Source: Mariniphaga anaerophila (GTDB taxonomy: Bacteria; Bacteroidota; Bacteroidia; Bacteroidales; Prolixibacteraceae). Taken from it: a stretch of DNA of 64,000 nucleotides. Numbering within the stretch: the stretch's first letter is position 1; every line of letters begins with the position of its first letter. Both the position numbers and the translations under genes were made by a program. A model generated the notes under the pieces. The model saw only the letters and a list, made by a program, of their open reading frames with translations, was not told where the DNA came from and made no database searches. The stretch lies in the NCBI RefSeq assembly GCF_900129025.1, contig NZ_FQUM01000006.1:124001-188000 (forward strand). Direction: 5' to 3'. This document shows positions 3,701 through 26,720 of the stretch, one piece after another.

Positions 3701-6700
3701 TTCAAATTCATCCGGAACAAAGGTGAGTACATAATTAATCCCGGCAGAAAGATCGCCTTGCATAATGTGATAACGTCCAATTGCCTCTCCCGATTCACGA
3801 ACCAACGCACCACTAAACTCATCTCCGCTTTCGAGCGACGGTTCAACAGTGTACATCAACACCGGATCATCAGCACCAACAACTTTCCATTGCAGACTCG
3901 CAGCCGTTACCGTAATCTGTTTCGGCAAAACAGTTATTGTACGCATTACCGGCGTAGCAGCCGGAATTTCTCCATTTCCAGGCTGGCTTGCAGTAATAAC
4001 GGTATTCCCAACCTGCAAAACCGTTGCAATATTCCCAACGATACGGACAACACTGGGGTCTTCCGCTTCATATTTAATGGTTAACCCCTGATCGGTAAAT
4101 ACATCGCCAAGAACAAAAGAATCGTCGCCATACGTTTTCTCTGTAATTTCCGGGAAATTAATTGTTTGCGCCGCGTTATCTGTTGTTGTAAAACTCCATG
4201 CATCAATCGCATCCGAAGGATTTCCTTCAACATCTGTTACAAAACCTTCGGTAACCGATACATTAATTATACTTGCTAACGGCAGATTGTCCGTTAGAGC
4301 AACCGTAATGGTCCTACCGTCAGGAGAGATCGAAAACTGATTTCGATCTCCGGATACATTCAGATAATACGTTTTCAGAATATGCCCTTCGCTTTCTATG
4401 GACAATACTCCCGATGCTCCCAACCGAACCGGTTCATCAAAAGTGATCGAGAGTGTGGGCACCAAAGCAACTTCAGTTGCTTCATCAGCCGGAGAAAAAG
4501 CTGTTACCTGCGGATTGCTGGTCGCTTTAATGGTAAAATATTCTGAAGCAAAATCAATCTGATAATTATTCCCGGCAGTTAAAATTCCTAAAACGAACGG
4601 ATAGGTGCCGATCTGTTCCCCGGAAATACGCCCCAGCTCCCCGGAAAAGGAATCTCCACTAAGCAATGCAGGAGCGGCAGAAAAAGCAAAAACAGGGTCG
4701 GTTTCACCAACCGTTTTAGACTGCCCGGGCTCCGGAGTTACCACAACCCACCTCGGTGCAATGGTAAATGCTGCCTGTACATATTTAATATTATAATTTT
4801 CATTAATGGACAAATCATTTTGTTCGATTACGTAAGAGCCGGCATTCTCGCCGATTTCTCTTTTCAGGCTCCCGGAAAGCTCGTCTCCTTCAACCAACTC
4901 GGTGCTGAGCGAAAAAGTCAGTTGAGGATCAGACTCTCCATAAACTTTTGTTTTTGGGTCGGCGGTTATAGTGATTGGTTTTTGAATAATTGTCAATTCA
5001 GCAGACACATAATCAATTGTATAGTTATCCCCGGCCGACAGTGAATTCTGATTTATCAAATAGGTACCAATCGTTTCCCCATCTACCCTGTTAAGCTCTC
5101 CCGAAAAAACATCCTCACCAACCAATGCCGGTACGACCTGGTAGCTTAACTCAGGGTCGGACTCTCCGTAAACTTTATTTTGAGCATCGGCTGTAACTGT
5201 AATTGGTTTCGAAGTAATCCACAACGAATCCTGTTCATATGTGATGGTATAATTACTTCCCGCATCCAAATCATTCTGACTGATGATGTAATAACCAATA
5301 TCTTCGCCCGACTCACGTAAAAGGCCACCGGAAAAAACATCCTCACCAACCAGTGCCGGATTTACCTGGTAGCTTAACTCAGGGTCGGACTCTCCGTAAA
5401 CTTTACTTTGAGCATCGGCGGTTACTGTAATTGGTTTCGAAGTAATCCACAACGAATCCTGTTCATATGTGATGGTGTAATTACTTCCCGCATCCAAATC
5501 ATTCTGACTGATGATGTAATAACCAATATCTTCGCCCGACTCACGTAAAAGGCCGCCGGAAAAAACATCCTCACCAACCAATGCCGGAACGACCTGGTAG
5601 CTTAACTCAGGGTCGGACTCTCCGTAAACTTTGCTTTGAGCATCGGCGGTGACTGTAATTGGTTTCGAAGTGATCCACAACGAATCCTGTTCATATGTGA
5701 TGGTGTAGTTACTTCCTGCATCCAAATCATTCTGACTGATGATATAATAACCAATATCTTCGCCCGACTCACGAACAAGGCCACCGGAAAAAACATCCTC
5801 ACCAACCAGTGCCGGAACGACCTGGAAGCTTAACTCAGGGTCGGACTCTCCATAAACTTTACTTTGAGCATCGGCGGTGACTGTAATTGGTTTCGAAGTA
5901 ATCCACAACGAATCCTGCTCATAAGTGATGGTGTAATTACTTCCCGCATCTAAATCATTCTGACTGATGATGTAATAACCAATATCTTCGCCCGACTCAC
6001 GAACAAGGCCGCCGGAAAAAACATCCTCACCAACCAATGCCGGTAAGACCTGGTAGCTTAACACAGGGTCGGACTCTCCGTAAACTTTACTTTGAGCATC
6101 GGCTGTAACTGTAATTGGTTTCGAAGTAATCCACAACGAATCCTGTTCAAATGTGATGGTGTAATTACTTCCAGCATCCAAATCATTTTGACTGATGATG
6201 TAATAACCAATATCTTCGCCCGACTCACGAACAAGGCCACCGGAAAAAACATCCTCACCAACCAATGCCGGTACGACCTGGAAGCTTAACTCAGGGTCGG
6301 ACTCTCCATAAACTTTACTTTGAGCATCTGCGGTGACTGTAATTGGTTTCGAAGTGATCCACAACGAATCCTGTTCATATGTGATGGTGTAGTTACTTCC
6401 TGCATCCAAATCATTCTGACTGATGATATAATAACCAACATCTTCGCCCGACTCACGAACAAGGCCACCGGAAAAAACATCCTCTCCAACCAATGCAGGA
6501 ACAACCTGGTAGCTTAACTCAGGGTCAGACTCTCCGTAAACTTTACTTTGAGCATCGGCGGTGACTGTAATTGGTTTCGAAGTAATCCACAACGAATCCT
6601 GCTCATAAGTGATGGTATAATTACTTCCCGCATCCAAATCATTCTGACTGATGATGTAATAACCAACATCTTCGCCCGGCTCACGAACAAGGCCTCCAGT

Positions 6701-9043
6701 AAAAACATCCTCACCAACCAGTGCCGGATTTACCTGGTAGCTTAACTCAGGGTCAGACTCTCCGTAAACTTTATTTTGAGCATCCGCGGTTACAGCAATT
6801 GGCTTCTTATTAACCAACAACTCCTGCGTAACTTCAGTAGCCGCAAACAATGTATCGTTACCAGCCTGATTGGCGCGTATGGTTGTTGTTCCCACTTTTA
6901 AAACAGTCGCCGTATTTCCACTGATGGTTACCACAGTAGGATCATCAGCAGTATAAGTAATAACCAGTCCTTTATCGGTAGTGGCATCGCCCAGAGTAAA
7001 ACTTTCGTCGCCGTATGTTTTGGGAGCAATTGCATTAAATGTTATGCTCTGAGTATCTTTTATTGTGGTAAAAGACCAACTAAAAGCTTCAACAGCGTTG
7101 GGAACTGCGGCCTTATCTTTTACTAGTCCATCCGGCACACTTACTGTTATTGTTGCTTTTGCACTCAGTCGATCCGGAATTTGCAGATTAAGCGTAGAAT
7201 CACCATTCGAAAGAGAATAGTAAGCTGATTCGGTTGTCAGGTCGTAGCTCCAGGTGTTCCCGTTTCCATCAGACAACGCAATTGCACCTACGCCTAAATC
7301 GATTGGCTCATCGAAAGTAATAGAAATTACCGGGCTCAAATCCACGTCTGTTTCTTCGTCGTCCGGCGAGAGAACAACAGCAACCGGAGATGACCTGTCC
7401 TCAACATTTATAGTCACAGTTCCGGTATCCGGCACCGAAAAACCATCAGTAATGCGGTAGGTAAAAGTAATTGTTCCAACATAGTCTTCCGGAGCCAGAA
7501 AATCGAATTCGCCTGTAGAAGTATTAAATGAAGTAAAAGAACCTTGCGCCGGTGTTGGCTGGGCAATAACAGACAAATTATCTCCGTCGGCATCCGAATC
7601 ATTATCCAGAAGATTCTCCGAAAGTGTTTGCCCCGCACCAATTGTATAGGAGTCGTCTACTGCAACGGGCGGCTGACTAACCAGCAGCTGAAATGTCTTT
7701 TCAAACTCATTTCCAAGGTTATCCGTTGACATAACACGAATATTCACCGTATTTAAGCCCAGAGCGTAAAGGTCACCATTCACCTTTAGCGAATTTCCAT
7801 CAATTGTAAAATAGCTGTTATGGTCGCTTCCGGTGCCGCTAACCAGACTGTAGACATGAGTGTCTGTTTCATCGGCATCAACAGAAGATAAAGTTCCCAC
7901 CTGCGCTCCTACTGTACGATTATTTACAGTATCGTTGGATAATTCAATATCTGAAGGGGCTTCTCCGTAGTCAATAACAGCCGTTGCCGGAGTACGGGTT
8001 GAGCTTTGCAATCCAAACTCGCTAACTGACGAAACATAATAAGTGGTATTTTCAGTAATTACAGGAGTAGTATACTGGGAGCCGGTTGCGCCGGCAATGG
8101 GATTTTCTGTGGTATTGTCAACAAACCACATGTAACTGCCGCCTGCAGGAGCACCCGCTGCCTGCAAAACGACCTGCCCCGGCCCATAATTATACCCGTC
8201 GGTGGTAGTAGGAGCACCAGGAGGAGTAGCAGATACATAACTGGTTGTTGCCGGGTTTAATCCGCCTGCATCGTATTCTGTGGAAAAGTAAAACGACCGA
8301 ACCATATGTTTTGAATATGATCCGCCAGTTGCCGCGGTAAATCCAACAAAAACGTTGGGGTCGGCAAAAATACTAGTCAAATCAATATTCTCTGATAAAT
8401 TAGCATTAGCCGGGCGGATATTACTGGTACTCACACGTACTTCTAAAGTTGTTGTTGATCCGTTATATTCTACCCAGGCGTAGAAAATAGTTCCTCCATC
8501 CATCGTAAAAGGAGGGTTAAACTGAGCTATACTACCAATATTTCCATCGACATTAATCCCGACATGATTGGCACTAAGATCATAAAAAGACCCGGAAGTT
8601 CCATTGTTATAAGTATCAAACTCAACCGCCAGGCTGGGAGATATTCCCTGATATCCAAGTCCACCGCCCGAACTTCCGGCAGAATTAGACTCGGTTTGAA
8701 TCAGGAAAGCCATTCCGTCTGCTCCGGCGTTACCTCCCGGGGTTGTCATCTGAAAACAAAACTGAGCCATAAAAGGACGCTGATTGTCCAAAACCACCCT
8801 TTTTGTTACAAATGCACTCCCCCGCTGTCCACCGGTGGCATCAGTTAAAACAAGGATAGAATTTCCTGAATCGTGATAAGCGTTATTGTTTATACTCCAG
8901 GTTCCGATATTTCCTGAAGTGAATGAATCGTAGGCAAACATTATTTCTGTTTGCGCTGTGGTCGAGAGATTAGAGAGAAAAGCAAAAGAGTACGTTATCC
9001 AAAAGAACAAAACTGTTCTGCCTAAAGCGTAATTCTTTTTCAT
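797..9043 (-). CDS. Giant L-type lectin / MBG-repeat surface adhesin with T9SS sorting domain
   Basis: A 2748-residue secreted protein. Order seen: signal peptide (1-30, ends TTAQ); bacterial L-type lectin-like domain (about 36-260, with AGADGMAFLIQ, AVEFDTYNN and HVGINVDG); an Ig-like segment (270-355); a cadherin-like domain (360-455); a VCBS/cadherin_5-like domain with DNDSDADGDN (456-548); a Big_5/SbsA Ig-like domain (TFDEPIDLG, 553-660); seven near-identical 76-residue MBG units plus three divergent ones (747-1510). Then Big_5 / KTYGD / MBG trios repeat three times, followed by a HYR-like domain and a C-terminal T9SS type-A domain (PNPVRSGSTV...LAPGTYIV). The T9SS domain implies export across the outer membrane and surface attachment. 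The lectin suggests glycan binding; the repeats make a long stalk. The function as adhesin is inferred. Confidence 0.9.
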   Translation of the reverse strand: MKKNYALGRTVLFFWITYSFAFLSNLSTTAQTEIMFAYDSFTSGNIGTWSINNNAYHDSGNSILVLTDATGGQRGSAFVTKRVVLDNQRPFMAQFCFQMTTPGGNAGADGMAFLIQTESNSAGSSGGGLGYQGISPSLAVEFDTYNNGTSGSFYDLSANHVGINVDGNIGSIAQFNPPFTMDGGTIFYAWVEYNGSTTTLEVRVSTSNIRPANANLSENIDLTSIFADPNVFVGFTAATGGSYSKHMVRSFYFSTEYDAGGLNPATTSYVSATPPGAPTTTDGYNYGPGQVVLQAAGAPAGGSYMWFVDNTTENPIAGATGSQYTTPVITENTTYYVSSVSEFGLQSSTRTPATAVIDYGEAPSDIELSNDTVNNRTVGAQVGTLSSVDADETDTHVYSLVSGTGSDHNSYFTIDGNSLKVNGDLYALGLNTVNIRVMSTDNLGNEFEKTFQLLVSQPPVAVDDSYTIGAGQTLSENLLDNDSDADGDNLSVIAQPTPAQGSFTSFNTSTGEFDFLAPEDYVGTITFTYRITDGFSVPDTGTVTINVEDRSSPVAVVLSPDDEETDVDLSPVISITFDEPIDLGVGAIALSDGNGNTWSYDLTTESAYYSLSNGDSTLNLQIPDRLSAKATITVSVPDGLVKDKAAVPNAVEAFSWSFTTIKDTQSITFNAIAPKTYGDESFTLGDATTDKGLVITYTADDPTVVTISGNTATVLKVGTTTIRANQAGNDTLFAATEVTQELLVNKKPIAVTADAQNKVYGESDPELSYQVNPALVGEDVFTGGLVREPGEDVGYYIISQNDLDAGSNYTITYEQDSLWITSKPITVTADAQSKVYGESDPELSYQVVPALVGEDVFSGGLVRESGEDVGYYIISQNDLDAGSNYTITYEQDSLWITSKPITVTADAQSKVYGESDPELSFQVVPALVGEDVFSGGLVRESGEDIGYYIISQNDLDAGSNYTITFEQDSLWITSKPITVTADAQSKVYGESDPVLSYQVLPALVGEDVFSGGLVRESGEDIGYYIISQNDLDAGSNYTITYEQDSLWITSKPITVTADAQSKVYGESDPELSFQVVPALVGEDVFSGGLVRESGEDIGYYIISQNDLDAGSNYTITYEQDSLWITSKPITVTADAQSKVYGESDPELSYQVVPALVGEDVFSGGLLRESGEDIGYYIISQNDLDAGSNYTITYEQDSLWITSKPITVTADAQSKVYGESDPELSYQVNPALVGEDVFSGGLLRESGEDIGYYIISQNDLDAGSNYTITYEQDSLWITSKPITVTADAQNKVYGESDPELSYQVVPALVGEDVFSGELNRVDGETIGTYLINQNSLSAGDNYTIDYVSAELTIIQKPITITADPKTKVYGESDPQLTFSLSTELVEGDELSGSLKREIGENAGSYVIEQNDLSINENYNIKYVQAAFTIAPRWVVVTPEPGQSKTVGETDPVFAFSAAPALLSGDSFSGELGRISGEQIGTYPFVLGILTAGNNYQIDFASEYFTIKATSNPQVTAFSPADEATEVALVPTLSITFDEPVRLGASGVLSIESEGHILKTYYLNVSGDRNQFSISPDGRTITVALTDNLPLASIINVSVTEGFVTDVEGNPSDAIDAWSFTTTDNAAQTINFPEITEKTYGDDSFVLGDVFTDQGLTIKYEAEDPSVVRIVGNIATVLQVGNTVITASQPGNGEIPAATPVMRTITVLPKQITVTAASLQWKVVGADDPVLMYTVEPSLESGDEFSGALVRESGEAIGRYHIMQGDLSAGINYVLTFVPDEFEIKSESNSPQIVKLSPEIGAYNVALQPTLAVTFDRPVNLGTQGTIMIWAGNDLLAFFDISKSADRNALALSDDKRTLYIYPSVVLPVSSLITVSLSNALVKDPLGDAFTGFRSWIFTTTSTNEQVINFPEIEEKTYGDEMFVLGDATTDQGLLVTYQADDADIVTIIGNQAMIHKTGTTVITATQAGDENIEPAISVRQTLVVLPKPITVTSTAGLTKLVGEEDPELTYSVAPEMVEGDEMTGILERTPGEAPGAYAIVQGTLSAGENYIVTFISNMFRIETEENAVPNVVSTYPEDGSTDAGLRTFLQVTFDEAVYLSHAGFITLQSGGVDLMRYDLSNSGDLEAFSFSEDRKTITLYLKESLPPGSLIEVVSSPDIVKDSDGNSFESSAVWSFTTIGSYGQNITFEEISVKTYGDESFELGDALTDQGLTVSYTAADSEVVFIEGNVATPLKVGTTIITASQPGDDEILAAANVRRTLVVVPREVVVTVDEGQSKIYGESDPVYTYSVEPPLVAGDAFSGTLNRSAGEMVGFYAITQGTLNISNNYRLRFVSNDFEIIDGLAPVPDVELLENVTAYCEIRESDMLVPTATDDIDGQIQGTTVTPFPLSEPGESIITWIFEDAAGNSITQQQTVIVEPSPLQAVTMAGDTVSSNGEVHSLSVSNLPEGAVVSYLNNEHAEPGVYEAQAVVVLEGTNCPEITLTATLVIESNDATIHQLAIGGMVITNPEEEIYYLMDCDDESQSVQVGITTEANATTSTESAFEVQAPVPGIYKKDVVVISQDKVETMTYHITVEKPFRFDDIVVQKFNNVLLVNNNPETNGGYHFVSFEWYKDGQPIGTGQSFSAGDNKNDLLDTDARYKVNLTTDEGDVISTCEFSIEHNSPFALKVTPNPVRSGSTVFVETNFTAEMLSGRTVEIRTIYGNIVYQKSSPENYSPLVLPGNLAPGTYIVTTTAGGVNLSTKIVVQ
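5210..6805 (-). repeat. Seven tandem 228-bp repeats (MBG units) inside the adhesin gene
   Basis: Seven consecutive units of exactly 228 bp (76 codons) encode KPITVTADAQSKVYGESDP...SLWITS with only a few substitutions each. Variable spots are the residue after QV (V, N or L), SYQV/SFQV, GGLV/GGLL and GEDV/GEDI. The string gaaaaaacatcctc recurs at 5331, 5559, 5787, 6015 and so on, with period 228. An eighth unit just below 5210 matches only in its first half. This high DNA identity allows unit gain or loss by recombination and makes the array prone to assembly collapse. Confidence 0.95.
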
Positions 9044-9782: not shown

Positions 9783-10736
9783 ATGGAATACAAAGACTAC
9801 TATAAAGTTTTGGGAGTTCCCAAATCAGCCGGCCAGGCCGAAATAAAAAAAGCCTACCGAAAGCTGGCTGTAAAATACCACCCCGATAAAAATGCCGGAA
9901 ACAAAGCGGCTGAAGAAAAATTCAAAGAAATAGGGGAAGCTTACGAAGTTTTAAAAGACCCGGAGAAAAGAAAAAAATATGACCAACTGGGCGCCAACTG
10001 GAATCAATACCAGAATGCAGGGTCGGGCGCAGGAGGATTTAACTACTCCAATTTCGGAAATGCGAACCCCGGAGGCGGAAAAACATTCTATTACGAAGGA
10101 GATTTAGGAGATATTTTCGGCCATTCGGGCGAAGGATTTTCTGACTTTTTCAAAAATTACTTTGGCGGCGGCAGCAGAAAAAGAAGCGCCGGGTTCAGGC
10201 AAAACCAACGTGTTTTTAATGGAAACGATTTGCGTGCCGAAATGGACATTTCGTTGGCGGAAGCATTTTCCGGAACAACCCGTATTCTGAATGTCGACGG
10301 CGAAAAACTGCGGGTAAAAACAAAACCGGGCGCCTATTCAGGACTCGAACTTCGAATTAAGGGCAAAGGAGGCGCCGGCGCAAATGGCGGCAGCAGAGGC
10401 GATCTTTACATCAGAATAAGAGTTCTTTCCGATGGAAGGCACACGCTCGACGGCAACGACCTGGCGCTAAAAGCAGATGTTGATTTGTACACTGCTGTTT
10501 TAGGAGGAAAACTGGAAATTAATACGCTCTCGGGGAAACTGAATGTGCCGGTTCGCGCCGGTTCGCAAAACGGGAGTAAACTGCGGTTACGCGGAAAAGG
10601 AATGCCGGTTTATGGAAAAGCCGGTATTTACGGAGATTTGTACATTCAACTGAATGTACTCATCCCGAAAAACCTCAGTCAGGAAGAACTGAACTTGTTT
10701 AAACAGCTGAGAGAATTAAGAAAAGCAAATGTATAA
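9783..10736 (+). CDS. cbpA: CbpA-type DnaJ-class co-chaperone
   Basis: A 317-residue type-B Hsp40. The J-domain fills residues 1-70 with the HPD motif at 33-35, which stimulates DnaK ATPase. A Gly/Phe/Asn-rich linker follows (about 75-125). There is no CxxCxGxG zinc finger, so this is CbpA/DnaJ-B rather than DnaJ itself. Two C-terminal substrate-binding domains follow (about 140-310; [21 protein letters not shown] is CTD I and [21 protein letters not shown] is CTD II). It acts in the cytosol. It heads a plus-strand run whose other members are an orphan protein and carbohydrate enzymes, which suggests a stress-linked role. The next gene overlaps its last 8 bp. E. coli CbpA also binds curved DNA; whether this one does is unknown. 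Confidence 0.92.
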
Positions 10737-11109
10737 CCGTAATAAATTTTCGAAAATGCTTGCAAAATATTATCAATACAACCATACAGAACCAGCTATC
10801 GAACTTCTCATAAGCAGAATGGACGAAATGATTTCCAGTCATTTCGCAAGCAATTTGCTCAACCAACTGGTAAACGCTGAAAGTTTTAACATGGAAAACT
10901 CGGTGAAAAAAGCAATTACCATCCTTCGCTTAATCGGAGTTCCTGTGCATGAGCATATTTCGGGAATTTACCGCTCCGATTTCAACGGCATGAGAAAAGA
11001 CTGGCAATTTTCTGAATTAGCCTGCAGCCTGATTATTCTGACATCGGGCACAACATCTGACCAGGCAGAACAAATTCAAACCGAACTACTTGAATTTTAC
11101 GGGCTGTAA
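10729..11109 (+). CDS. Orphan protein translationally coupled to CbpA-like chaperone
   Basis: 126 residues that I do not recognise. The ATG lies inside the last codons of the DnaJ gene (8-bp overlap in another frame), which points to translational coupling. The protein looks soluble and helical, with no signal peptide or membrane segment. The middle ([30 protein letters not shown]) resembles a helix-turn-beta segment and the C-terminus ends in [13 protein letters not shown]. By position it could modulate the co-chaperone, as CbpM does for CbpA in enterobacteria, but I see no CbpM-like MerR helix-turn-helix. The function is open. Confidence 0.75.
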
Positions 11110-11210
11110 ATAACGCAGCCTTTTTTTAAAATCTGATTTTCGGGGCACTCGCTTAAACGAGCATCCTGACAATCAGCACTGTTATACAAACAATTATAAA
11201 CATCAAAAAA

Positions 11211-13499
11211 ATGAAAATAGCTTTTATAGGAACCTATCCGCCACGTCAATGTGGTATTGGCACCTTTACAAATAATCTTGTAAAAGCAGTTGTTGCCAAT
11301 ACCGACAGTAAAAAAATTTCGAAGCATGCAATGATAGTTGCCATTAACGAGGACGGGCAGCACTACAATTACCCCGACGAAGTAAAACATGTTATTCGGC
11401 AAAACCACCAGCGCGACTATATTGATGCCGCGAAGTTCATCAATTACAGCGATGCAAAAGTTTGTGTTCTGGAACACGAATTTGGCATATTCGGCGGCGA
11501 TGACGGCGTGTTTATCCTTCCGCTGCTTCATCGGCTTGAAGTTCCACTCATTGTAACTTTTCACACGGTACTCCGCACCCCGTCTTACACACAGCGTTCT
11601 ATTGTTGAAGAAATCGGGAAGAAAGCAGCCCGCATTGTTGTGATGAGCAAAAGGGCAGTCGACTTTCTGGCAGATATTTACAAAATTCCGAGAGAAAAAA
11701 TTGCGCTGATAGAACACGGCGTTCCGGAGTTTGAAAAAATATCGCACAAACAGGCCAAACAAAAACACGGATTAACCGGTCGAAAAATACTGCTCACTTT
11801 CGGATTACTAAGCAGAAACAAAGGCATAGAAACTGCAATTAATGCCTTACCCCGGGTTGTTGAAAAACACCCCGATTTATTGTACATCGTTTTGGGAGCC
11901 ACTCATCCCAATGTATTAAAACAAACAGGAGATGAATACCGCGACTATTTGAAAAGGCTGGTTAAGAAACTGGGACTCGAAAAGAATGTCCATTTCAACA
12001 ACGAATTTGTTTCCGAAACCAAACTTTTTGAATACCTGAATGCCAGCGACATTTACCTGACTCCCTATCTCAGCGAAGCTCAAATAACAAGTGGCACGCT
12101 GTCTTACGCTGTTGGTGCCGGTTGCGCTGTTGTTTCAACACCTTACTGGCACGCCCAGGAATTACTTGCCGACGACCGCGGACGGCTATTTGATTTTAAA
12201 AACTCTGAACAACTGGCGCAAATACTTAACCACTTACTTGACGATGAAGACCAGCTTGCCCTGCTTCGAAAAAATGCATTTACCTACGGCAAAAAAATAA
12301 GGTGGCCCAAAATCGGCAAACAATACCTCAACCTGGCCAATTACGTTTCCGACAACTGGGAAAAACGACAGGAAGATGATGCAAACGGGCAACCGATTGA
12401 TATTAGTTTGCTGCCGGCTTACAACCTCGAACATGTTAAGCGCTTAACCGACGATACCGGAATTGTACAACACGCCAAATATGGTATTCCAAACTTAAAA
12501 GAAGGCTATTGTGTAGACGATAACTCAAGGGCACTACTCATGGCGCTTATGGCTTATCGCCAGAACAAAGACAAAGATGCACTTCGTCTTATGCCGGTTT
12601 ACCTCAGCTTTATTCACTACATGCAGCGCGAGAATGGCGATTTCAGAAACTTTCTGAGCTTTAGCCGCCAGTTTCTCGACGAATACGGCTCCGAAGATTC
12701 TTTTGGGAGAACAATCTGGGCACTGGGATATTTGCTCCACTTTGCCCCCAACGATTCATTCCGGCAAATCGGAAGAGACATTTTTTTCCACTCGACACAA
12801 CACTTCAAAGAAATTAAATCGATCCGGGGCGCGGCCAATACCATTATCGGAATAAGTTACTATTTAAAAGAAGTTCAGAACGACGAAGGAATGGTTCAGG
12901 AGATGAACAGGCTGGTAGGAATTATTACTTCAAATTACGAACAAAACAAAACCGACGACTGGAAATGGTTTGAAAAACAAATGAGCTACGACAATGCCAT
13001 TATTCCCCTCGCTTTGTTCTCTGCTTACGAAATAACCGGCAACGAAAAAGTATTTGCCATAGCTATGGAAGCTGCAGAATTTCTGGAATCACAAACAATG
13101 AAAAAAGACTATTTCAGGCCTATCGGAAATAAAGGATGGCTGAAAAAAGGAGAAAAACCGGCTGACTTCGACCAGCAATCCATTGATGTAATGGCCATGA
13201 TTCTGCTTTACAACCAGATGTTTCTGGTGAGCAAAAAACGCAGTTACATCGAAAAAATGTTTCTGTGCTACCTGTGGTTTTTGGGTGAAAATTCACTGCG
13301 TCTTCCGCTTTTCGACCACGAAACGCAGGGGTGTTGCGACGGGCTGGAAACCAACGGAGTAAACCGCAACCAGGGCGCAGAAAGCACTCTGGCATACTGG
13401 ATATCTCACGTAACTATTTTGTCGGCACAGGAAAAAGAGCACATCTACATGAGCGAACAACCTGCTGCCGCTTCAGAGAACAATCTAAAAATCAGTTAA
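11211..13499 (+). CDS. GT4 glycosyltransferase fused to an alpha-helical (toroid-like) C-terminal domain
   Basis: 762 residues, about twice a normal GT4. Residues 1-385 are a GT-B fold: MKIAFIGTYPPRQCGIGTF is the acceptor-side opening seen in GT4 enzymes. HEFGIFGGDDG, HTVLRTPSYTQR, LLTFGLLSRNKGIETAI and TPYLSEAQITSGTLSYAVGAG cover the sugar-nucleotide side. Residues 400-745 are all helical with aromatic, acid-rich motifs (YCVDDNSRALL, FGRTIWALGYLL, MSYDNAIIPLALF, FDQQSIDVMAMI), as in six-hairpin (alpha/alpha)6 glycosidase-like proteins. It ends 3 bp before a GH130 gene. I infer one protein that builds, and perhaps binds or trims, an intracellular glycan. Donor and acceptor are unknown. No signal peptide, so cytosolic. 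Confidence 0.85.
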   Translation: MKIAFIGTYPPRQCGIGTFTNNLVKAVVANTDSKKISKHAMIVAINEDGQHYNYPDEVKHVIRQNHQRDYIDAAKFINYSDAKVCVLEHEFGIFGGDDGVFILPLLHRLEVPLIVTFHTVLRTPSYTQRSIVEEIGKKAARIVVMSKRAVDFLADIYKIPREKIALIEHGVPEFEKISHKQAKQKHGLTGRKILLTFGLLSRNKGIETAINALPRVVEKHPDLLYIVLGATHPNVLKQTGDEYRDYLKRLVKKLGLEKNVHFNNEFVSETKLFEYLNASDIYLTPYLSEAQITSGTLSYAVGAGCAVVSTPYWHAQELLADDRGRLFDFKNSEQLAQILNHLLDDEDQLALLRKNAFTYGKKIRWPKIGKQYLNLANYVSDNWEKRQEDDANGQPIDISLLPAYNLEHVKRLTDDTGIVQHAKYGIPNLKEGYCVDDNSRALLMALMAYRQNKDKDALRLMPVYLSFIHYMQRENGDFRNFLSFSRQFLDEYGSEDSFGRTIWALGYLLHFAPNDSFRQIGRDIFFHSTQHFKEIKSIRGAANTIIGISYYLKEVQNDEGMVQEMNRLVGIITSNYEQNKTDDWKWFEKQMSYDNAIIPLALFSAYEITGNEKVFAIAMEAAEFLESQTMKKDYFRPIGNKGWLKKGEKPADFDQQSIDVMAMILLYNQMFLVSKKRSYIEKMFLCYLWFLGENSLRLPLFDHETQGCCDGLETNGVNRNQGAESTLAYWISHVTILSAQEKEHIYMSEQPAAASENNLKIS

Positions 13500-13502
13500 A
13501 TT

Positions 13503-14432
13503 ATGCCTTTAGTAAAACGATATGCCAACAATCCCATATTAACAAAAAACGATGTTCCGTATGAAGTAGCAACCGTGCACAATGCCGGCGTTACAAAATA
13601 CAATAACCAATACATTATGCTTTTCCGCTCGCATAAACTTAACGGGCGGAGCATTCTAGGGCTGGCTCGCAGTACCGACGGGTATCATTTTAAAGTTGAA
13701 GAAAAACCATTTCTGGAACCTGCCACCCGCGGAGAATTTGCAGAGTACGAAGCCTTTGGGGTGGAAGACCCGCGAATAACATTTATTGAAGGCGAATATT
13801 TAATAACCTACTCGGCCTACTCAAAACATGGCGTACGAATAGGCCTCGCAAAAACCAAAGACTGGCAAACAGTTGAAAGAGTATCGCTGATTACCGAAGC
13901 CGATTACCGTAATGTGGTTATTTTCCCGGAAAAATTCAATGGATTGTACGCCCGGTTAGACAGGCCGCATTCCGAAATCAGCCCCTGGTCGATGTGGATT
14001 AGTTACTCTCCCGACCTGAAATACTGGGGAAAATCAAAACTGATTATGAAACCGGAAACCTACCACTGGGACGAAATGAAAATCGGGCCGGGAGCGCCTC
14101 CCATTAAAACAGAAAAAGGCTGGCTGAACATTTACCACGGAGTATTTCCTACGATGGATGGCAGTGTTTATCGGCTGGGCGTAGCTTTGCACGATTTGAA
14201 TGACCCGTCCAAAATTCTGGGGGTTGGCGACAACTGGATTCTGCAACCGGAAGAGCCGTACGAAATTACAGGCTATGTTCACAATGTGGTTTTTACGTGT
14301 GGCGCCGTAGCAGAAAACAACGGTACTTTAAAACTGTATTGGGGAGGAGCCGACTCGGTAATGTGCGCAGGAACCGCCAACATCAGCGATTTGATCGATT
14401 TATGTTTAAACAATTCAAGAAAACCACTATAA
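13503..14432 (+). CDS. GH130 beta-mannoside phosphorylase (short type)
   Basis: 309 residues, the usual size for the compact five-bladed GH130 fold. The segment EAFGVEDPRI contains the expected general-acid aspartate (D89). GPGAPPIKTEKGWLNIYHGV and GYVHNVVFTCGAV are typical blade motifs. Known GH130 enzymes phosphorolyse beta-1,4- or beta-1,2-mannosides to mannose-1-phosphate, and some hydrolyse beta-1,2-mannosides. Linkage cannot be read here. It has no signal peptide and sits between two GT4 genes (3 bp after one, 2 bp before the next), so substrate and product are probably cytosolic and shared with those transferases. Phosphorolysis is reversible, so it could degrade or extend the glycan. 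Confidence 0.88.
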   Translation: MPLVKRYANNPILTKNDVPYEVATVHNAGVTKYNNQYIMLFRSHKLNGRSILGLARSTDGYHFKVEEKPFLEPATRGEFAEYEAFGVEDPRITFIEGEYLITYSAYSKHGVRIGLAKTKDWQTVERVSLITEADYRNVVIFPEKFNGLYARLDRPHSEISPWSMWISYSPDLKYWGKSKLIMKPETYHWDEMKIGPGAPPIKTEKGWLNIYHGVFPTMDGSVYRLGVALHDLNDPSKILGVGDNWILQPEEPYEITGYVHNVVFTCGAVAENNGTLKLYWGGADSVMCAGTANISDLIDLCLNNSRKPL

Positions 14433-14434
14433 CA

Positions 14435-15448
14435 ATGAAAGTTGCAGTATTATCTCCCGTTGCCTGGCGTACCCCGCCAAGGCATTACGGACCATGGGAA
14501 CAGGTAGCATCAAATATTACAGAAGGGTTAGTCGAAAAAGGACTTGACGTTACCCTTTTTGCCACAAAAGATTCATTAACATCCGGCAAGCTCGAAGCGG
14601 TGATTGACCAAGGATACGAAGAAGACAAATCAGTAGAACCCAAAGCTGTGGAATGTTTACACATCGCTCATTTAATGGAACATGCCTCTGAGTTCGACAT
14701 CATTCACAACAATTTCGATTTTCTGCCGCTAAGCTATTCGCGTCTGATTAAAACGCCGATGATAACTACCATTCACGGATTTTCATCGCCGAAAATAATT
14801 CCTGTTTTTCAGGAATACAACGCAAACAACCACTACGTATCAATAAGTAATGCAGACCGGAGTGAAAAGCTGAAATATACAGCTACAGTTTACAACGGGA
14901 TTAACAAAAACCTGTTTACCCTCAACAAAAAAAAGGGCGACTACCTGCTGTTTTTTGGAAGAATTCATCACGACAAAGGAACCTGGGAAGCCATTCAGAT
15001 TGCCAAAAAAGCCAAAATGAAACTGATCATTTCAGGCATCATACAAGACGAGTCCTACTTTGACGAAAAGGTTTCGCCCTATTTGAATAACGACGACATT
15101 ATTTACGTTGGAAGCTCGGGCCCGGAAAAAAGAGATGAATTGCTGCAAAACGCCTTTGCACTGTTGCACCCCATCAATTTTAAAGAACCCTTCGGACTAA
15201 GCGTTGCAGAAGCCATGTTTTGCGGCACTCCTGTAATTGCATTCGAAAAAGGTTCGATGAGAGAATTGATTGTTAACGGGAAAACCGGCTATTTGGTGCA
15301 TTCTATCGACGAGGCAGTTGAACGCATAAAAGACATCCCACAAATTAATCGTGAATATTGCCGCACCTGGGCAGAGCAAAACTTCAGCAAGGAAAAAATG
15401 ACCGAAGATTATATTAAAGTGTACCAGAAAATATTGGGCAATAGTTAA
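14435..15448 (+). CDS. GT4 family glycosyltransferase
   Basis: 337 residues. I chose the ATG at 14435, giving MKVAVLSPVAWRTPPRHYGPWE, a standard GT4 N-terminus 2 bp after the GH130 stop. A longer open frame reaches upstream but only overlaps GH130. The GT-B C-lobe is clear: YLLFFGRIHHDKGTWEAI (nucleotide-sugar loop) and LHPINFKEPFGLSVAEAM, which holds the E-x7-E motif, followed by CGTPVIAFEKGSMREL. It resembles GDP-mannose or UDP-sugar dependent GT4 enzymes; the donor is not resolvable. It is the last gene of the plus-strand run, followed by a bidirectional terminator. With the GT4 fusion and GH130 it probably makes a cytosolic mannoside. Confidence 0.88.
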   Translation: MKVAVLSPVAWRTPPRHYGPWEQVASNITEGLVEKGLDVTLFATKDSLTSGKLEAVIDQGYEEDKSVEPKAVECLHIAHLMEHASEFDIIHNNFDFLPLSYSRLIKTPMITTIHGFSSPKIIPVFQEYNANNHYVSISNADRSEKLKYTATVYNGINKNLFTLNKKKGDYLLFFGRIHHDKGTWEAIQIAKKAKMKLIISGIIQDESYFDEKVSPYLNNDDIIYVGSSGPEKRDELLQNAFALLHPINFKEPFGLSVAEAMFCGTPVIAFEKGSMRELIVNGKTGYLVHSIDEAVERIKDIPQINREYCRTWAEQNFSKEKMTEDYIKVYQKILGNS

Positions 15449-15506
15449 ACAGAATAAGCATCGGGAGCCTCCAAACATACCACATTCAGAACATTTTTAC
15501 CGGCAA

Positions 15507-15554
15507 AAAAAAGAGAATGGGCAGAATAATTCGTTTCTGTCCATTCTCTTTTTT
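15507..15554. terminator. Bidirectional intrinsic terminator between GT4 and thioredoxin genes
   Basis: Left arm AAAAAAGAGAATGGGCAGAA (15507-15526) and right arm TTCTGTCCATTCTCTTTTTT (15535-15554) pair over 20 positions with a single G-T wobble and an 8-nt loop. The arms start with A-runs and end with T-runs, so the hairpin terminates both the plus-strand GT4 operon and the minus-strand thioredoxin operon. Confidence 0.9.
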
Positions 15555-15614
15555 AGTTACATCATTGTCCGGTTTCCAAACAGGGCAATAATCAAAACCA
15601 AAAAGGCAACGCGC

Positions 15615-15914
15615 CTACAGATAGCCCGCCAAAATACGCATCAGATTTGCTTTGTCTGCTACCCCCGATTGTCGCCACAGTATTTGCCCGTTTTTAAACA
15701 AAGCCAGCGTTGGCACACTTCGAATGCCAAACCGGCCGGCCACTTCGGCATTCTTATCAACATCAATTTTTATGACTTTCAGTTTTCCGGTTAATTCGCG
15801 GGCAACTTCTGCCAAAATGGGCGACTGAGCTTTGCATGGGCCACACCATTCTGCAAAAAAATCGACCAACACCGGCATCCCGGACTGAACTATTGAATTG
15901 AAATTTCCTTTCAT
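15615..15914 (-). CDS. trxA: Thioredoxin
   Basis: 99 residues, a stand-alone thioredoxin fold. Active site WCGPCK has Cys24 and Cys27, and the cis-proline is in RSVPTLALF (Pro68). There is no signal peptide, so it is a cytosolic disulfide reductase. It lies 56 bp downstream of the long GH130 gene and before a strong terminator, so it is likely the last gene of an hsp20/GH130/trx minus-strand group. The pairing with Hsp20 suggests oxidative or heat stress. It may be an accessory thioredoxin rather than the main housekeeping copy. Confidence 0.93.
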   Translation of the reverse strand: MKGNFNSIVQSGMPVLVDFFAEWCGPCKAQSPILAEVARELTGKLKVIKIDVDKNAEVAGRFGIRSVPTLALFKNGQILWRQSGVADKANLMRILAGYL

Positions 15915-15970
15915 CTGTATAAGTTTTAATTTTCCGATAAATTAAAAATTCAAATCTGACATTTATCTGT

Positions 15971-17440
15971 TTACAATTTATTTTTCTCCAGCTCAGCAAG
16001 TAAATCGTTGAGTTTGATACTTGCAAAAGATGATGCGTAGTCGCTCATGGCGTATGGAATTATCAGCTCGTCGTTGTGCACAATAGCGCCGCAAGTGTAC
16101 ACTACATTCGGCACATATCCGGAGCGTTCATTTTCGTCGGGCAGCAAAAGCGGTTCGTTCAACCTTCCAATAATTTTGGTCGGGTCATTCAAATCGAGCA
16201 AGCAAGCCCCCAGGCAATATTTCCGCACCGGGCCCACTCCGTGGGTAATCAGCAGCCAGCCTTTTTCTGTTTCAATGGGAGAGCCGCCGTTTCCCATTTG
16301 CACAAACTCCCACGGATGCGTTGGCTTTGATAAAATCTGCGCGTCGTTCCACCGATACAGATTATCGGAAAACATGATGTAATTGTTTATGCCGTCAATC
16401 CGGCTAATCATGGCATATTTCCCGTTTATTTTTTTTGGGAAGAGCGCCAGATTTTTGTCAATGGCGTATTTCCCGTTCAGCGGAAAAATTTTAAACGACA
16501 GAAAATCCCGGGTTTCAATCAGCTTCGGCAAAATGGAATAACCGTCGTAGGCAGTATAAGTGGCATAGTAAGTTGCTTTCCCGTTATCGTCTACGAACCG
16601 GGCAAACCGTGCATCTTCAACTCCATTTTTTTCGAATTTGGAAATAGGGAAAATAACACGTTCCGACAGGTCTGTGTCCAAAGAAAACCGAATTTCGGTG
16701 TGAGAATCTGCCAGCCAAAGAATTTCGTTAATTACTTTTTTCTGTTCAAAAGTGTAATCCTCGTTTTGTTTCTTTAATTCATCAACACAATCCCGAACCT
16801 GATCGTAGGTAAATTTCTCGGGAAAATGTGACAGAATCTTTTCAGAAAAATCAGCATCGATTCCCATATGCCGCAACGCTTTTAAAAACGACTCTTTATG
16901 ATAATTGTGGTTTTTTATGAGTTCGGCTTCTCCAATCTGATCGCCCGACTCAAGCATTGTTATTTGGTTGTTCTCATCTATAACGGCACGCCGGAAAACC
17001 AACGAAGAGATGTGTCCTTCGCCGGTTGCCCTGAAACTGATAATTACTCGTTTTTCTCCGCGGTGCAACCCACTCTGGTCGAAATCCTCCACAACAGAAG
17101 GATTAAAAAGCGCGGCAGATTCCAATGCATATTCCATGGTAAAATACGATCCAATCAGCAGCTTTCTCCATTCCGTAATGTGCTTTCCTTTTCCGACTTC
17201 TGTAACGATATGGGCAACATGCCTGAAATTCCGCTTAAAAATTCCAGTGATGCTCCGGTGTCTTTTCGAAAACTCCCGCAGTGTTTGGTGTACCAGCATC
17301 TCAACTGTGCTTTCAGGAAGTTCCAGAAGGTTCTCAATCAGTTTTTTTGCCCGCTCGTCGCCATTGTAAAAAAAACGAGCGATTACACGCCTGTTATCCG
17401 GAGCAATTATTGTGTTTTTACGTTCAACCGGTAATCTCAT
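15971..17440 (-). CDS. GH130 glycoside phosphorylase/hydrolase with long N-terminal region
   Basis: 489 residues from the ATG at 17440 (MRLPVERKNTIIAPDNRRV), which follows an A-rich leader. An in-frame start at 17500 would add 20 basic residues. The C-terminal 280 residues carry GH130 motifs: EKNGVEDARFARF (acid Asp in the VED position), MGNGGSPIETEKGWLLITHGVG and GYVPNVVYTCGAI. The first 200 residues (RVIARFFYNGDERAKKLIENLL...) form a helical region absent from the short GH130, and the catalytic motif reads EDAR rather than EDPR. It belongs to a different GH130 subgroup from the 13503 gene and may act on another linkage or as a hydrolase. No signal peptide. It lies between hsp20 and trx genes on the same strand. 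Confidence 0.85.
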   Translation of the reverse strand: MRLPVERKNTIIAPDNRRVIARFFYNGDERAKKLIENLLELPESTVEMLVHQTLREFSKRHRSITGIFKRNFRHVAHIVTEVGKGKHITEWRKLLIGSYFTMEYALESAALFNPSVVEDFDQSGLHRGEKRVIISFRATGEGHISSLVFRRAVIDENNQITMLESGDQIGEAELIKNHNYHKESFLKALRHMGIDADFSEKILSHFPEKFTYDQVRDCVDELKKQNEDYTFEQKKVINEILWLADSHTEIRFSLDTDLSERVIFPISKFEKNGVEDARFARFVDDNGKATYYATYTAYDGYSILPKLIETRDFLSFKIFPLNGKYAIDKNLALFPKKINGKYAMISRIDGINNYIMFSDNLYRWNDAQILSKPTHPWEFVQMGNGGSPIETEKGWLLITHGVGPVRKYCLGACLLDLNDPTKIIGRLNEPLLLPDENERSGYVPNVVYTCGAIVHNDELIIPYAMSDYASSFASIKLNDLLAELEKNKL

Positions 17441-17764
17441 ACTATTATATTTTTTGGGGAGGTTGTTGCGCCTCATTCGTTCTTTCTTGCTACACTTCAA
17501 TCAGAAAATTCACCACTCCTTTTTTATTGAATAGATGGATATTCTTCTTTGCAAACCGAATTTCCGATTCTATGTTAATTTCATCATCCCAAGCATTCGG
17601 GTCGCCAAATTACTGTTCGTTTTTTCTGCAAACAAGCGTGTGGTATCCGGATTTACCAGACAAGGACATGCATTTTACAAAAGAGCGGAAATTTAATTGG
17701 TGCTTTCATCACCCTGAATCTCAGAAAAAAATAAAGGGGCAAGCCAATTCCTGCCCCTTTACAT
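17441..17764 (-). promoter_or_regulatory. Upstream region of long GH130 with blocks shared with hsp20 leader
   Basis: 324 bp between GH130 and hsp20. Read on the minus strand it contains TTTTGTAAAATGCA (17669-17682) followed at once by TTGTCTGG (17656-17663). The same two blocks occur upstream of hsp20 (18338-18351 and 18280-18287) in the same order and orientation. I infer a common regulatory signal. The distal part of the gap holds the hsp20 terminator. Confidence 0.4.
17724..17760 (-). terminator. Intrinsic terminator of hsp20
   Basis: On the minus strand AAAGGGGCA (17752-17760) pairs with TGCCCCTTT (17733-17741), 9 bp with a 10-nt loop, followed by a T-rich tail. It lies directly after the hsp20 stop, so the downstream long GH130 gene probably has its own promoter. 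Confidence 0.85.
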
Positions 17765-18214
17765 TTATGATATTTTAATTTCTTTTGGCGGTTTGGGTTT
17801 TAACTCTTCTCTTTTAGGAAGTTTTACATGAAGTATTCCGTCGTTGTATTTTGCTTCAATTTTATCGGCGTCTATTGCCTTTTCGGGCACGTAGAAAGAA
17901 CGCTGAAATGACTGATAACAAAATTCTCTGCGATTTACTTTACCATCCTTTTCTTCGTGTTTAGCTTCTTTTTCAGAAGAAATAGTTAATCTGCCATTGT
18001 TGTAATTAATTTTGAAATCGTCTTTTTTCAAACCTGGGGCAGCAACCTCGAGTTGAAAATCATTTTCGGTTTCTTTGACATTAACAGCAGGTAATGTTGA
18101 ATTTTCTCCTGCAAAATTTGAATTGTTCCAGTCTGCCAAATTTCCTTCAAAAAAATTGTCAAGCCATGAAGGAAATGCAGGTAACCAACTGTTTGATAAT
18201 CTAGCCAGTGTCAT
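17765..18214 (-). CDS. Hsp20/alpha-crystallin small heat-shock protein
   Basis: 149 residues, typical for Hsp20. The alpha-crystallin domain spans about 42-140 (NDFQLEVAAPGLKKDDFKI, RREFCYQSFQRSFYVPEKA, AKYNDGILHVKLPKRE). The C-terminal tail ends KPPKEIKIS, with the I-x-I anchor (IKI) used for oligomer assembly. ATP-independent holdase in the cytosol. A strong Shine-Dalgarno GGAGGG lies 7 nt before the ATG (18222-18227), which is uncommon in Bacteroidota. No CIRCE element is seen. It forms a group with the long GH130 and thioredoxin. Confidence 0.95.
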   Translation of the reverse strand: MTLARLSNSWLPAFPSWLDNFFEGNLADWNNSNFAGENSTLPAVNVKETENDFQLEVAAPGLKKDDFKINYNNGRLTISSEKEAKHEEKDGKVNRREFCYQSFQRSFYVPEKAIDADKIEAKYNDGILHVKLPKREELKPKPPKEIKIS

Positions 18215-21089: not shown

Positions 21090-22624
21090 ATGATTAAAAA
21101 AACCTTTTTACTACCTTTTCTTGCACTATTTGCCTGGCCTGCCAAAATCAACCCAAACAGGCAGAACAGAAAAGACCCAACATCATTTACATTTTAGCCG
21201 ATGATTTAGGATACGCCGAACTTGGATGTTACGGGCAAAACAAAATAGAAACTCCGAACATAGACGCACTGGCAACCCGTGGTATTAAATTCACACAACA
21301 CTACACCAGTTCTCCGGTGTGCGCTCCTGCGCGCTGCATGTTGCTTACCGGAATGCACTCGGGGCATGCACAAATCAGAGGTAACGACGAGTGGGCCGAC
21401 CGTGGCGATGTGTGGAATTTTGAAGCCATGAACAACGACCCTAACCTTGAAGGACAACGCCCGTTGAAACCCGGCACACAAACCATCGGAACACTGCTGC
21501 AGCAGGCAGGGTACAAAACGGCGGTTGTGGGAAAGTGGGGACTTGGAGGCCCGCTTACCGAAGGGATTCCCAACAAACAGGGATTCGATTTTTTCTACGG
21601 GTACAACTGCCAGCGCCAGGCTCACACCTATTTTCCGCAACACCTGTGGAAAAACACCGAAAAAGTACAGCTCAACAACAAAATGGTTGCTCCGCACACA
21701 AAACTTTCACAAGGTGCCGACCCGCAAAATCCGGATTCCTACAGCGATTTCTGGCTGACAGATTACGCGCCTGACCTCATGCAAAAAGAAGTTATCCAAT
21801 TCATTAAAGAAAATAAAGCCCACCCTTTCTTCATGTATTATGCCACTCCAATTCCGCATGTGCCTTTGCAGGCGCCAAAAAACTGGGTGGATTATTACGT
21901 TAAAAAATTTGGCGACGAAAAACCGTACACCGGAGATCAGGGGTACTTTCCACAACGCTACCCGCGGGCATGTTACGCCGCAATGGTTTCTTATTTCGAT
22001 GAACAGGTTGGAGAAATTGTTTCCGCATTAAAAGAGCTTGGGCTGTACGAAAATACCATCATCATGTTTTCTTCCGACAACGGACCAACATTCAACGGCG
22101 GAACAGACTCTCCGTGGTTCGACAGTGCCCGTCCGTTTAAAAGCGAACGCGGCTGGGGCAAGGCCAATCTGCGGGAAGGCGGCATACGAATTCCGATGAT
22201 TGTGCAATGGCCGGGAAAAATAGAACCGGGACAAACAACGGAATTAATCTCCTCCCACTACGATGTGTTACCTACCATTGCAGAAATTCTGAATATTACG
22301 CCGCAAGGCAGCATAGACGGTATTTCTTTTGCGCCCACGCTGTTGGGTAAAAAAAATCAGAAAAAACACGAGTTTCTGTATTGGGAGTTTCCCTCATCAA
22401 GCGGCCAACAGGCTGTACGTTTCGGCGACTGGAAAGGACTCAGAAGCAACATTTTAAAAGACAGCATGCAAATTCATCTGTATAATCTGAAGGACGACAT
22501 CAGGGAACAAAACGATGTTGCCGCTCTTCACCCCGAAACAGTTCAAAAAATAGAGGCCATTTTTAATCAGCAACACACACCCGCAGAAAATCAACGTTTT
22601 AAAATAAAACAATTGGGAGATTAA
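21090..22624 (+). pseudogene. Sulfatase lipoprotein with frameshift in its signal peptide
   Basis: The ATG at 21090 opens MIKKTFLLPFLALFA, a good lipoprotein signal. That frame runs on as WPAKINPNR and stops at 21195-21197. The sulfatase body is in the frame one base back: CQNQPKQAEQKRPNIIYIL from 21140 to 22624, closed upstream by TAA at 21095. Restoring one C near 21133-21137 (GCCTGG to GCCCTGG) would give LALFALACQNQ, a proper lipobox. The body is otherwise complete: metal site ADDLGYAELG, formylglycine motif CAPAR (Cys codon 21320) followed by CMLLTG, GKWGLGG, and SSDNGPTFNGG. Family S1 formylglycine arylsulfatase. It could be a true null, phase variation or a sequence error. First gene of a four-gene operon. 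Confidence 0.8.
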
Positions 22625-22675
22625 AATAATGACACTACTTTTGACGGTCAATTCATTTATAAACAATTAAAAATC

Positions 22676-24214: not shown

Positions 24215-24223
24215 AACCACACC

Positions 24224-26707: not shown

Positions 26708-26720
26708 CCATGCTCATTTC

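Follow-up and report, generated by a model that had tools for sequence, protein, structure and literature searches.

The window analysed here is a 64,000-nucleotide stretch of the Mariniphaga anaerophila genome (contig NZ_FQUM01000006.1, positions 124,001 to 188,000). Between its positions 9783 and 18214 lie four carbohydrate-active genes, encoding a GT4 glycosyltransferase with a C-terminal helical domain (GT4hel), a short and a long GH130 protein (GH130S and GH130L) and a single-domain GT4 transferase (GT4), in the company of genes for a CbpA-type DnaJ, an orphan protein, a thioredoxin and an Hsp20. The first-pass annotation of this DNA had listed the eight genes and joined the sugar enzymes and the chaperones in one stress-induced mannoside cycle. 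All eight genes are found with the strands and families that it gave, according to the open reading frame (ORF) map, Pfam and NCBIfam (Table 1).

Table 1. Genes and hairpins of the 9783-18214 region, in window coordinates.
Feature	Position	Strand	Evidence or remark
DnaJ/CbpA-type co-chaperone (DnaJ + DnaJ_C)	9783..10736	+	Pfam/NCBIfam; judged a neighbour, outside the module
Orphan, 126 aa, no Pfam/NCBIfam match	10729..11109	+	pairs with dnaJ and not with the sugar genes
Hairpin and U-tract ending the DnaJ-orphan pair	11101..11121	+	-9.9 kcal/mol, z -3.2
GT4hel: GT4 (~1-385) and C-terminal helical, (alpha/alpha)-barrel-like domain (~405-743)	11211..13499	+	Pfam, AlphaFold2 (AF2), Foldseek
GH130S: short GH130, 309 aa	13503..14432	+	PF04041 191.9 bits (cut-off 26)
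GT4: single-domain, 337 aa, TeGSS-like	14435..15448	+	8x3q/7fg9, E 1e-71, 245 bits
Bidirectional hairpin between convergent transcription units	15507..15554	.	-28.6 kcal/mol (z -8.1) on +; -22.7 kcal/mol (z -5.7) on -
Thioredoxin, between GT4 and GH130L	15615..15914	-	TIGR01068 above cut-off
GH130L: long GH130, 489 aa, extra N-terminal helical part	15971..17440	-	PF04041 110.8 bits
Strong hairpin and U-tract downstream of hsp20, before the GH130L start	17731..17762	-	-20.8 kcal/mol, z -4.3
Hsp20 small heat-shock protein, neighbour	17765..18214	-	PF00011 88.1 bits

GT4hel, GH130S and GT4 are spaced by 3 and 2 bp, the GT4 start codon (ATG 14435) following directly on the end of GH130S at 14432, and these three genes are likely one operon. 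The reading frames of dnaJ and the orphan overlap by 8 bp, and this pair is likely a separate operon. Hairpins with U-tracts stand after the DnaJ-orphan pair and after hsp20, and the chaperone genes therefore look like transcription units of their own. Operon spacing and hairpin positions together thus make the layout itself divide the sugar genes from the chaperone genes. The terminator that the two strands had been suggested to share is borne out by the hairpin at the point of convergence, which folds strongly on both strands. It is the folding z-scores that single out the hairpins of this region, not the terminator pattern scan, which returned 15 terminator-like sites overall against 11.0 expected (sd 3.1), barely above chance. 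GH130L most likely starts at ATG 17440, where its homologues start, rather than at TTG 17500.

Conservation of the sugar-gene cassette

Conservation was followed in a set of 112 loci, made up of 32 with GH130L from genomes of the same order and the best 80 of 590 from named genomes. GH130L is present in the ORF maps of 111 (L066, where it is interrupted by stops, was dropped), and a collapse at 95% identity leaves 107 loci. At least 5 kb is available on both flanks in 78 of these, and linkage was scored by gene midpoints. At a distance of up to 5 kb from GH130L, the 78 two-flank loci have GT4hel in 42 cases, GT4 in 31 and GH130S in nine. As in the window, GT4hel converges on GH130L in 35 of its 42 loci and GT4 in 27 of its 31; across all 107 loci there are 35 convergent pairs of GT4 and GH130L, and in 24 of them the gap measures -26 to +67 bp. 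The combination of GT4hel and GH130L ranges over Bacteroidales, Sphingobacteriaceae, Flavobacteriaceae, Cyclobacteriaceae, Chitinophagaceae and others.

A second sample comprised 296 genomes of the phylum, with few first-look candidates scored per genome, so that misses are possible. GH130L was found in 40 of these genomes and GT4hel in 55 (one of them, G319, matching in the GT4 half only). GT4hel accompanies GH130L in 33 of the 40 GH130L genomes, as against 22 of the 256 others (Fisher p 2e-22, kinship ignored). The two genes lie no more than 10 kb apart in 23 of the 33 co-occurring genomes and are apart in ten. The unit formed by GT4hel, GH130S, GT4 and GH130L is real and conserved, and it recurs across the phylum. 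Neighbourhood conservation in relatives, on which the stress-induced cycle depended, therefore holds for the sugar genes; it does not extend to the chaperones.

GH130S is an optional fourth member of this cassette. One mapped set of 34 loci includes nine with all four genes, in which GH130S is 73-80% identical to the window copy; the gene is also found in L187 and L188. Among the 80 named-genome loci, a close relative occurs in three (L084, L120 and, as a fragment, L073). At positions 12489-12761 of L073, only a C-terminal piece of GH130S is left between intact GT4hel and GT4 genes. In five loci (L046, L052, L053, L058 and L060) identity to the window copies is 76-80% for GH130S, compared with 46-52% for GH130L and 55-58% for GT4hel; either slow evolution or separate transfer would account for this high identity.

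In a quick tree of GT4hel with a midpoint root, the window copy groups with those of L036 (from another family), L173 and L073, and GT4hel from three genomes of the same genus branches in the opposite half of the tree. The window cassette therefore differs in lineage from that of its genus-mates, and the tree would fit either transfer or an old duplication followed by loss. Other genes recur around the cassette. A 186-aa gene with an AraC-type helix-turn-helix is present in 17 mapped loci (for example L186, 15986-16546). A set made up of a PIG-L deacetylase, a 380-aa GT4 and a GH100/GDE_C-like gene recurs in loci of GT4hel or GH130L, in eight loci each (examples are L174, 13555-15338, and L181, 7165-8343).

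The four cassette enzymes

Both GH130 proteins belong to the family by Pfam (Table 1). Their phosphate-ligand positions were placed by alignment to solved GH130 chains; which GH130 residues bind phosphate is in part our assumption. For GH130 phosphorylases, three basic residues are described as the phosphate ligands (PMC4599007). In GH130S these positions are R154, K193 and H212, and all three are kept in 14 of 14 aligned sequences, as in a phosphorylase. The catalytic Asp of the family is present in the window copy (Asp89) and in 13 of the 14 sequences, with a single Ala, and the Glu beside it is invariant (14/14). Against the two NCBIfam models for beta-1,2 enzymes GH130S scores 266 and 206 bits, under the cut-offs of 550 and 450, and its best solved match is TM1225, which is listed as beta-1,4. 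The window genome has two other GH130 genes, both in neighbourhoods of ordinary sugar use by ORF reading. One (L069, 9129-10307) is close to the 4-O-beta-mannosyl-glucose phosphorylase 3was (627 bits), and the other (L068, 9699-10715) to Teth514_1788 (207 bits).

GH130L is an active-site variant. Its Glu, Asp, beta-1,2-type Lys and first phosphate-ligand Arg are each found in 123 of 123 sequences and the His in 122, and the third phosphate-ligand position is occupied by Gln in 121 sequences and by Lys in two. With Gln at this position the set of three basic residues that marks a phosphorylase is incomplete; with Arg and His retained, and Gln third, neither are these positions the carboxylates that mark a beta-1,2-mannosidase. 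By the published criteria (PMC4599007), the residue counts thus place GH130L outside both the standard phosphorylases and the standard hydrolases, as a distinct variant. The AF2 model of GH130L has a predicted local distance difference test (pLDDT) score of 89.8, and the best among the Foldseek matches listed is Teth514_1788, with a TM-score of 0.77 on the target, in keeping with the five-bladed propeller of the GH130 family. Membership in GT108 was considered, and no GT108 chain is present among the sequence hits or the 50 Foldseek matches listed for GH130L. Some GH130L proteins are longer, at 617-674 aa (L039, L042, L043, L049, L074, L078, L090 and L144). The C-terminal extra part is a response-regulator receiver domain in L042 (Pfam) and a tail of the same kind in L039 (by alignment); the other six were judged by length alone.

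The two transferases match the GT4 model PF00534 with 71.6 and 87.5 bits. In GT4hel, the Pfam GT4 matches cover residues 99-356 and a C-terminal extension of about 340 residues follows. The AF2 model (pLDDT 88.8, predicted template modelling score 0.70) consists of a GT-B half and a mostly helical half, in line with the GT4-helical fusion that had been read from the sequence. Foldseek returns GT4 enzymes of the GT-B fold and also 7tem, the top match; a sequence search places 7tem at residues 652-733. The helical half alone weakly resembles the GH127 and GH88 models, below their cut-offs.

Homologues of the helical domain that stand alone, with no GT4 part, are found beside GH130L in four loci (L063, L064, L065 and L067). 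Two further GH130-like genes accompany them in three of the four, L064 ending at a contig edge. Pfam identifies permeases in L065 and L067 as well as in L063, which also encodes a SusD, a solute-binding protein and a MalK-like ATPase. The 1044-aa gene next to this SusD is called SusC-like only from its size and position, and gene sizes are the basis for calling L064 an import-type locus. The association links the helical domain with GH130L through a common kind of substrate and, to judge from gene content, means that the two could serve catabolism.

The single-domain GT4 aligns over its full length with TeGSS (tll1591), its nearest solved relative. Its Y18 and R176 (the latter corresponding to Arg179 of TeGSS by alignment) are present in at least 95% of 45 sequences. 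Enzymes of the GT4 family are retaining, giving an alpha product from an alpha-linked nucleoside diphosphate (NDP) sugar. A retaining mechanism is stated for TeGSS itself (PMC9909042).

Chaperone and thioredoxin neighbours

The proposal that the carbohydrate enzymes are tied to stress chaperones draws on physical proximity in the window genome. A further point in its favour is that products of the TeGSS type are described as accumulating under salt stress in cyanobacteria (PMC9909042). The neighbourhoods in other genomes speak against it, with a few exceptions in close kin. DnaJ and the orphan are near GH130L in none of the 107 non-redundant loci. The orphan occurs in three of 100 genomes of the family, the window genome included, and adjoins DnaJ in all three places seen, the window among them, as would suit a CbpM-like partner, but it has no match in Pfam or NCBIfam. 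The other two places are L190 and L191, from the same-genus genome G188 and from G156 of the family, where the 20 kb fetched around the DnaJ-orphan pair contain no cassette gene. In G188, GT4hel is located on a different contig from the pair.

Hsp20 was counted in two samples drawn regardless of its presence. It lies within 10 kb of GH130L in one of 29 relatives of the order (G038, at about 9 kb; some contigs are shorter than 10 kb) and in none of 39 genomes of the phylum sample. Among the mapped loci, Hsp20 is near GH130L in L071/L072, L077 (401 bp), L101 (992 bp) and two loci that resemble each other, L131 and L045 (8.3-8.6 kb for the last two; L045 is the locus of G038). After removal of near-duplicates this amounts to five of 107, against about one by our own chance estimate, which assumes about 1.5 Hsp20 genes per genome. 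In the Anaerophaga loci L071/L072, hsp20, an HtrA-type protease (Pfam on L072) and GH130L form a row on one strand, with no adjoining GT4 cassette. A weak tie between Hsp20 and GH130L is possible in close kin or in some lineages, such as Anaerophaga.

A thioredoxin gene is near GH130L in eight of 107 loci, always upstream and always in Sphingobacteriaceae-like loci. This count covers one family cluster, and a further, weaker thioredoxin-like ORF in L112 falls outside it. L109, the one of these loci that was checked, is a dnaE-trx neighbourhood. No other locus was seen to have a thioredoxin between GT4 and GH130L, and these two genes directly adjoin one another in L036 and L073, which are among the closest cassettes. 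Regulatory signals give a similar picture. The window contains no CIRCE element (controlling inverted repeat of chaperone expression), and a promoter pattern of the Bacteroidota type was found five times in the window against 4.6 expected, with no occurrence in the region.

The DnaJ-orphan pair, thioredoxin and Hsp20 mostly look like neighbours rather than parts of the module. The stress-regulon reading was rejected as a general explanation on the strength of the neighbourhood counts, the location of the DnaJ-orphan pair elsewhere, the hairpins between the units, the missing CIRCE and a promoter pattern at chance level. Chaperone proximity in one genome was no evidence of a stress pathway. Elsewhere in the window, positions 797-9043 of the minus strand encode a 2748-aa protein with many near-identical repeats and, by eye, a C-terminal sorting-type end, and a row of three sulfatases and a PhoD-like phosphatase spans positions 21317-28643.

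A possible pathway and its relation to known systems

The first-pass annotation had two GT4s make a mannoside that two GH130s recycle. A conserved GT4/GH130 carbohydrate module does exist, but the stereochemistry of that cycle is off. The GT4s form alpha bonds and the GH130s act on beta-mannosides; being retaining, the GT4s should therefore be unable to form the bonds on which the GH130s act. From retaining GT4s and beta-acting GH130s it follows that the likeliest product combines an alpha-linked part with a beta-mannosyl part. The earlier observation is thus confirmed, and its interpretation is half right and partly supported.

Our preferred reading, to which we give somewhat less than even weight, is that the four genes form a chromosomally encoded cytosolic module which would assemble and turn over an oligosaccharide that has an alpha-linked part and bears beta-mannosyl residues, perhaps in beta-1,2 linkage. 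The two GT4s, by analogy with their family, would build the alpha-linked part from NDP-sugars, with the alpha-1,2-glucosyl bonds produced by TeGSS as the closest precedent for the single-domain enzyme. GH130S, judging by its residues, may add or remove a beta-mannosyl unit by way of alpha-mannose-1-phosphate. GH130L, with its beta-1,2-type +1 site and altered phosphate pocket, might carry out beta-1,2-mannosyl hydrolysis, phosphorolysis or transfer. The helical domain of GT4hel would trim the alpha-linked part, as its stand-alone homologues in import-type loci suggest.

Several observations weigh against this module. In 36 of the 78 two-flank loci, the 5 kb on either side of GH130L contain no GT4hel. 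In the phylum sample, a GT4hel match is missing from seven of the 40 genomes with GH130L, and a GH130L match from 22 genomes with GT4hel. Most cassettes outside Bacteroidales are without GH130S. The 80 named-genome loci, as the closest of 590, are a biased set, and genomes that share ancestry do not count as independent. At the position of BT3780 Lys199, located through the Teth514 and Lin0857 chains and not by alignment to BT3780, GH130S has Arg in 14 of 14 sequences, where beta-1,2 enzymes have Lys. GH130L is also present in the import-type loci L063, L064, L065 and L067 and may be a general catabolic enzyme, and no biochemistry of any GH130L or GT4hel was found in the literature.

The strongest competitor is a route of salvage only, in which phosphorolysis by the GH130s turns beta-mannosides, whether imported or endogenous, into alpha-mannose-1-phosphate for GDP-mannose synthesis, and the GT4s put that GDP-mannose to another use. 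Such a route has been proposed for Thermoanaerobacter, whose cluster contains two GH130s, a GT4 and a mannose-1-phosphate guanylyltransferase (PMC4264767). The company that GH130L keeps in L063 (SusD, solute-binding protein, permease and MalK-like ATPase) and the permeases of L065 and L067 also favour it. We nevertheless regard salvage alone as unlikely. The commonest conserved partners of GH130L are the two GT4s, not transporters, and a Pfam scan of 17 window proteins shows neither a SusC/SusD pair nor a sugar importer, in agreement with the initial view that the region is no polysaccharide utilisation locus.

Alternatively, the GT4s and GH130s could build or trim a mannosylated lipid or protein glycan instead of a free oligosaccharide, and the GT-B half of GT4hel does match PimA/PimB', MshA and other GT4s by fold. 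This we consider improbable. The twelve Pfam-checked families among the 40 most widespread non-cassette neighbours include no flippase or ligase; the membrane proteins among them are an AI-2E-type transporter (nine loci) and two ABC permease families (five loci each). In addition, the GH130 phosphorylases described in PMC8950772 act on oligosaccharides. A bolder proposal makes GH130L the bacterial counterpart of GT108. It would use GDP-mannose or mannose-1-phosphate to make a cytosolic beta-1,2-mannan on an alpha primer made by the GT4s, the changed phosphate pocket and the additional N-terminal part of GH130L allowing use of the donor. GH130S would return mannose-1-phosphate, and the outcome would be a mannogen-like pool across Bacteroidota, alongside glycogen; as a whole, we judge this set of steps to be quite improbable. 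That the module replaces glycogen was rejected: of 149 genomes of the order, 148 have a GlgA-type glycogen-synthase domain, the window genome included, so there is no missing glycogen pathway for it to replace. A stress regulon that makes and recycles a mannoside protectant together with Hsp20, the CbpA-type DnaJ and thioredoxin is highly improbable, given the neighbourhoods described above.

What is worth keeping from this locus is the GT4hel/GT4/GH130 cassette and the GH130L variant, rather than the chaperone link. GH130 enzymes are mostly read as catabolic. A phylum-wide cassette with a nearly invariant GH130 variant offers a way into the question of whether bacteria themselves synthesise beta-mannosides in the cytosol, and, if GH130L makes them rather than breaking them, the relation between GH130 and GT108 would extend into bacteria. 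No description of this gene set was found in the open-licence literature, as judged by titles and the beginnings of abstracts.

Among characterised systems, the cluster of Thermoanaerobacter sp. X-514 (Teth514_1788/1789, with the GT4 Teth514_1786) likewise has two cytosolic GH130s near a GT4 and the E-D motif (PMC4264767). Teth514_1788 is the best match of the GH130L model among those listed, and GH130L keeps the lysine that has been assigned to beta-1,2 specificity. The Thermoanaerobacter cluster is described as including an ABC importer, a GH5 and the guanylyltransferase (PMC4264767), whereas the window cassette has two GT4s and no importer was seen in it. Both Thermoanaerobacter GH130s are short (the solved chains have 303 and 313 aa), and one GH130 of the cassette is long and has a Gln among its phosphate-ligand positions.

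The likeness to the GT108 mannogen system of Leishmania would lie in a cytosolic beta-1,2-mannoside and in five-bladed propeller enzymes that can both make and break it (PMC8950772, PMC8476585). The bacterial cassette adds GT4s and a helical domain. TeGSS is similar to the single-domain GT4 over its whole length (245 bits), and the equivalents of its Tyr18 and Arg179 are conserved. The two differ in their surroundings, tll1591 being described near a sucrose-phosphate synthase gene (PMC9909042) and the cassette GT4 having GH130s and GT4hel as partners. Finally, the beta-1,2-mannosidases BT3780 and BACOVA_03624 have the E-D motif and the beta-1,2 lysine in common with GH130L (PMC4599007). These enzymes are reported to use glutamates in place of the basic phosphate ligands (PMC4599007), whereas in GH130L Arg and His are retained and the third residue is Gln.

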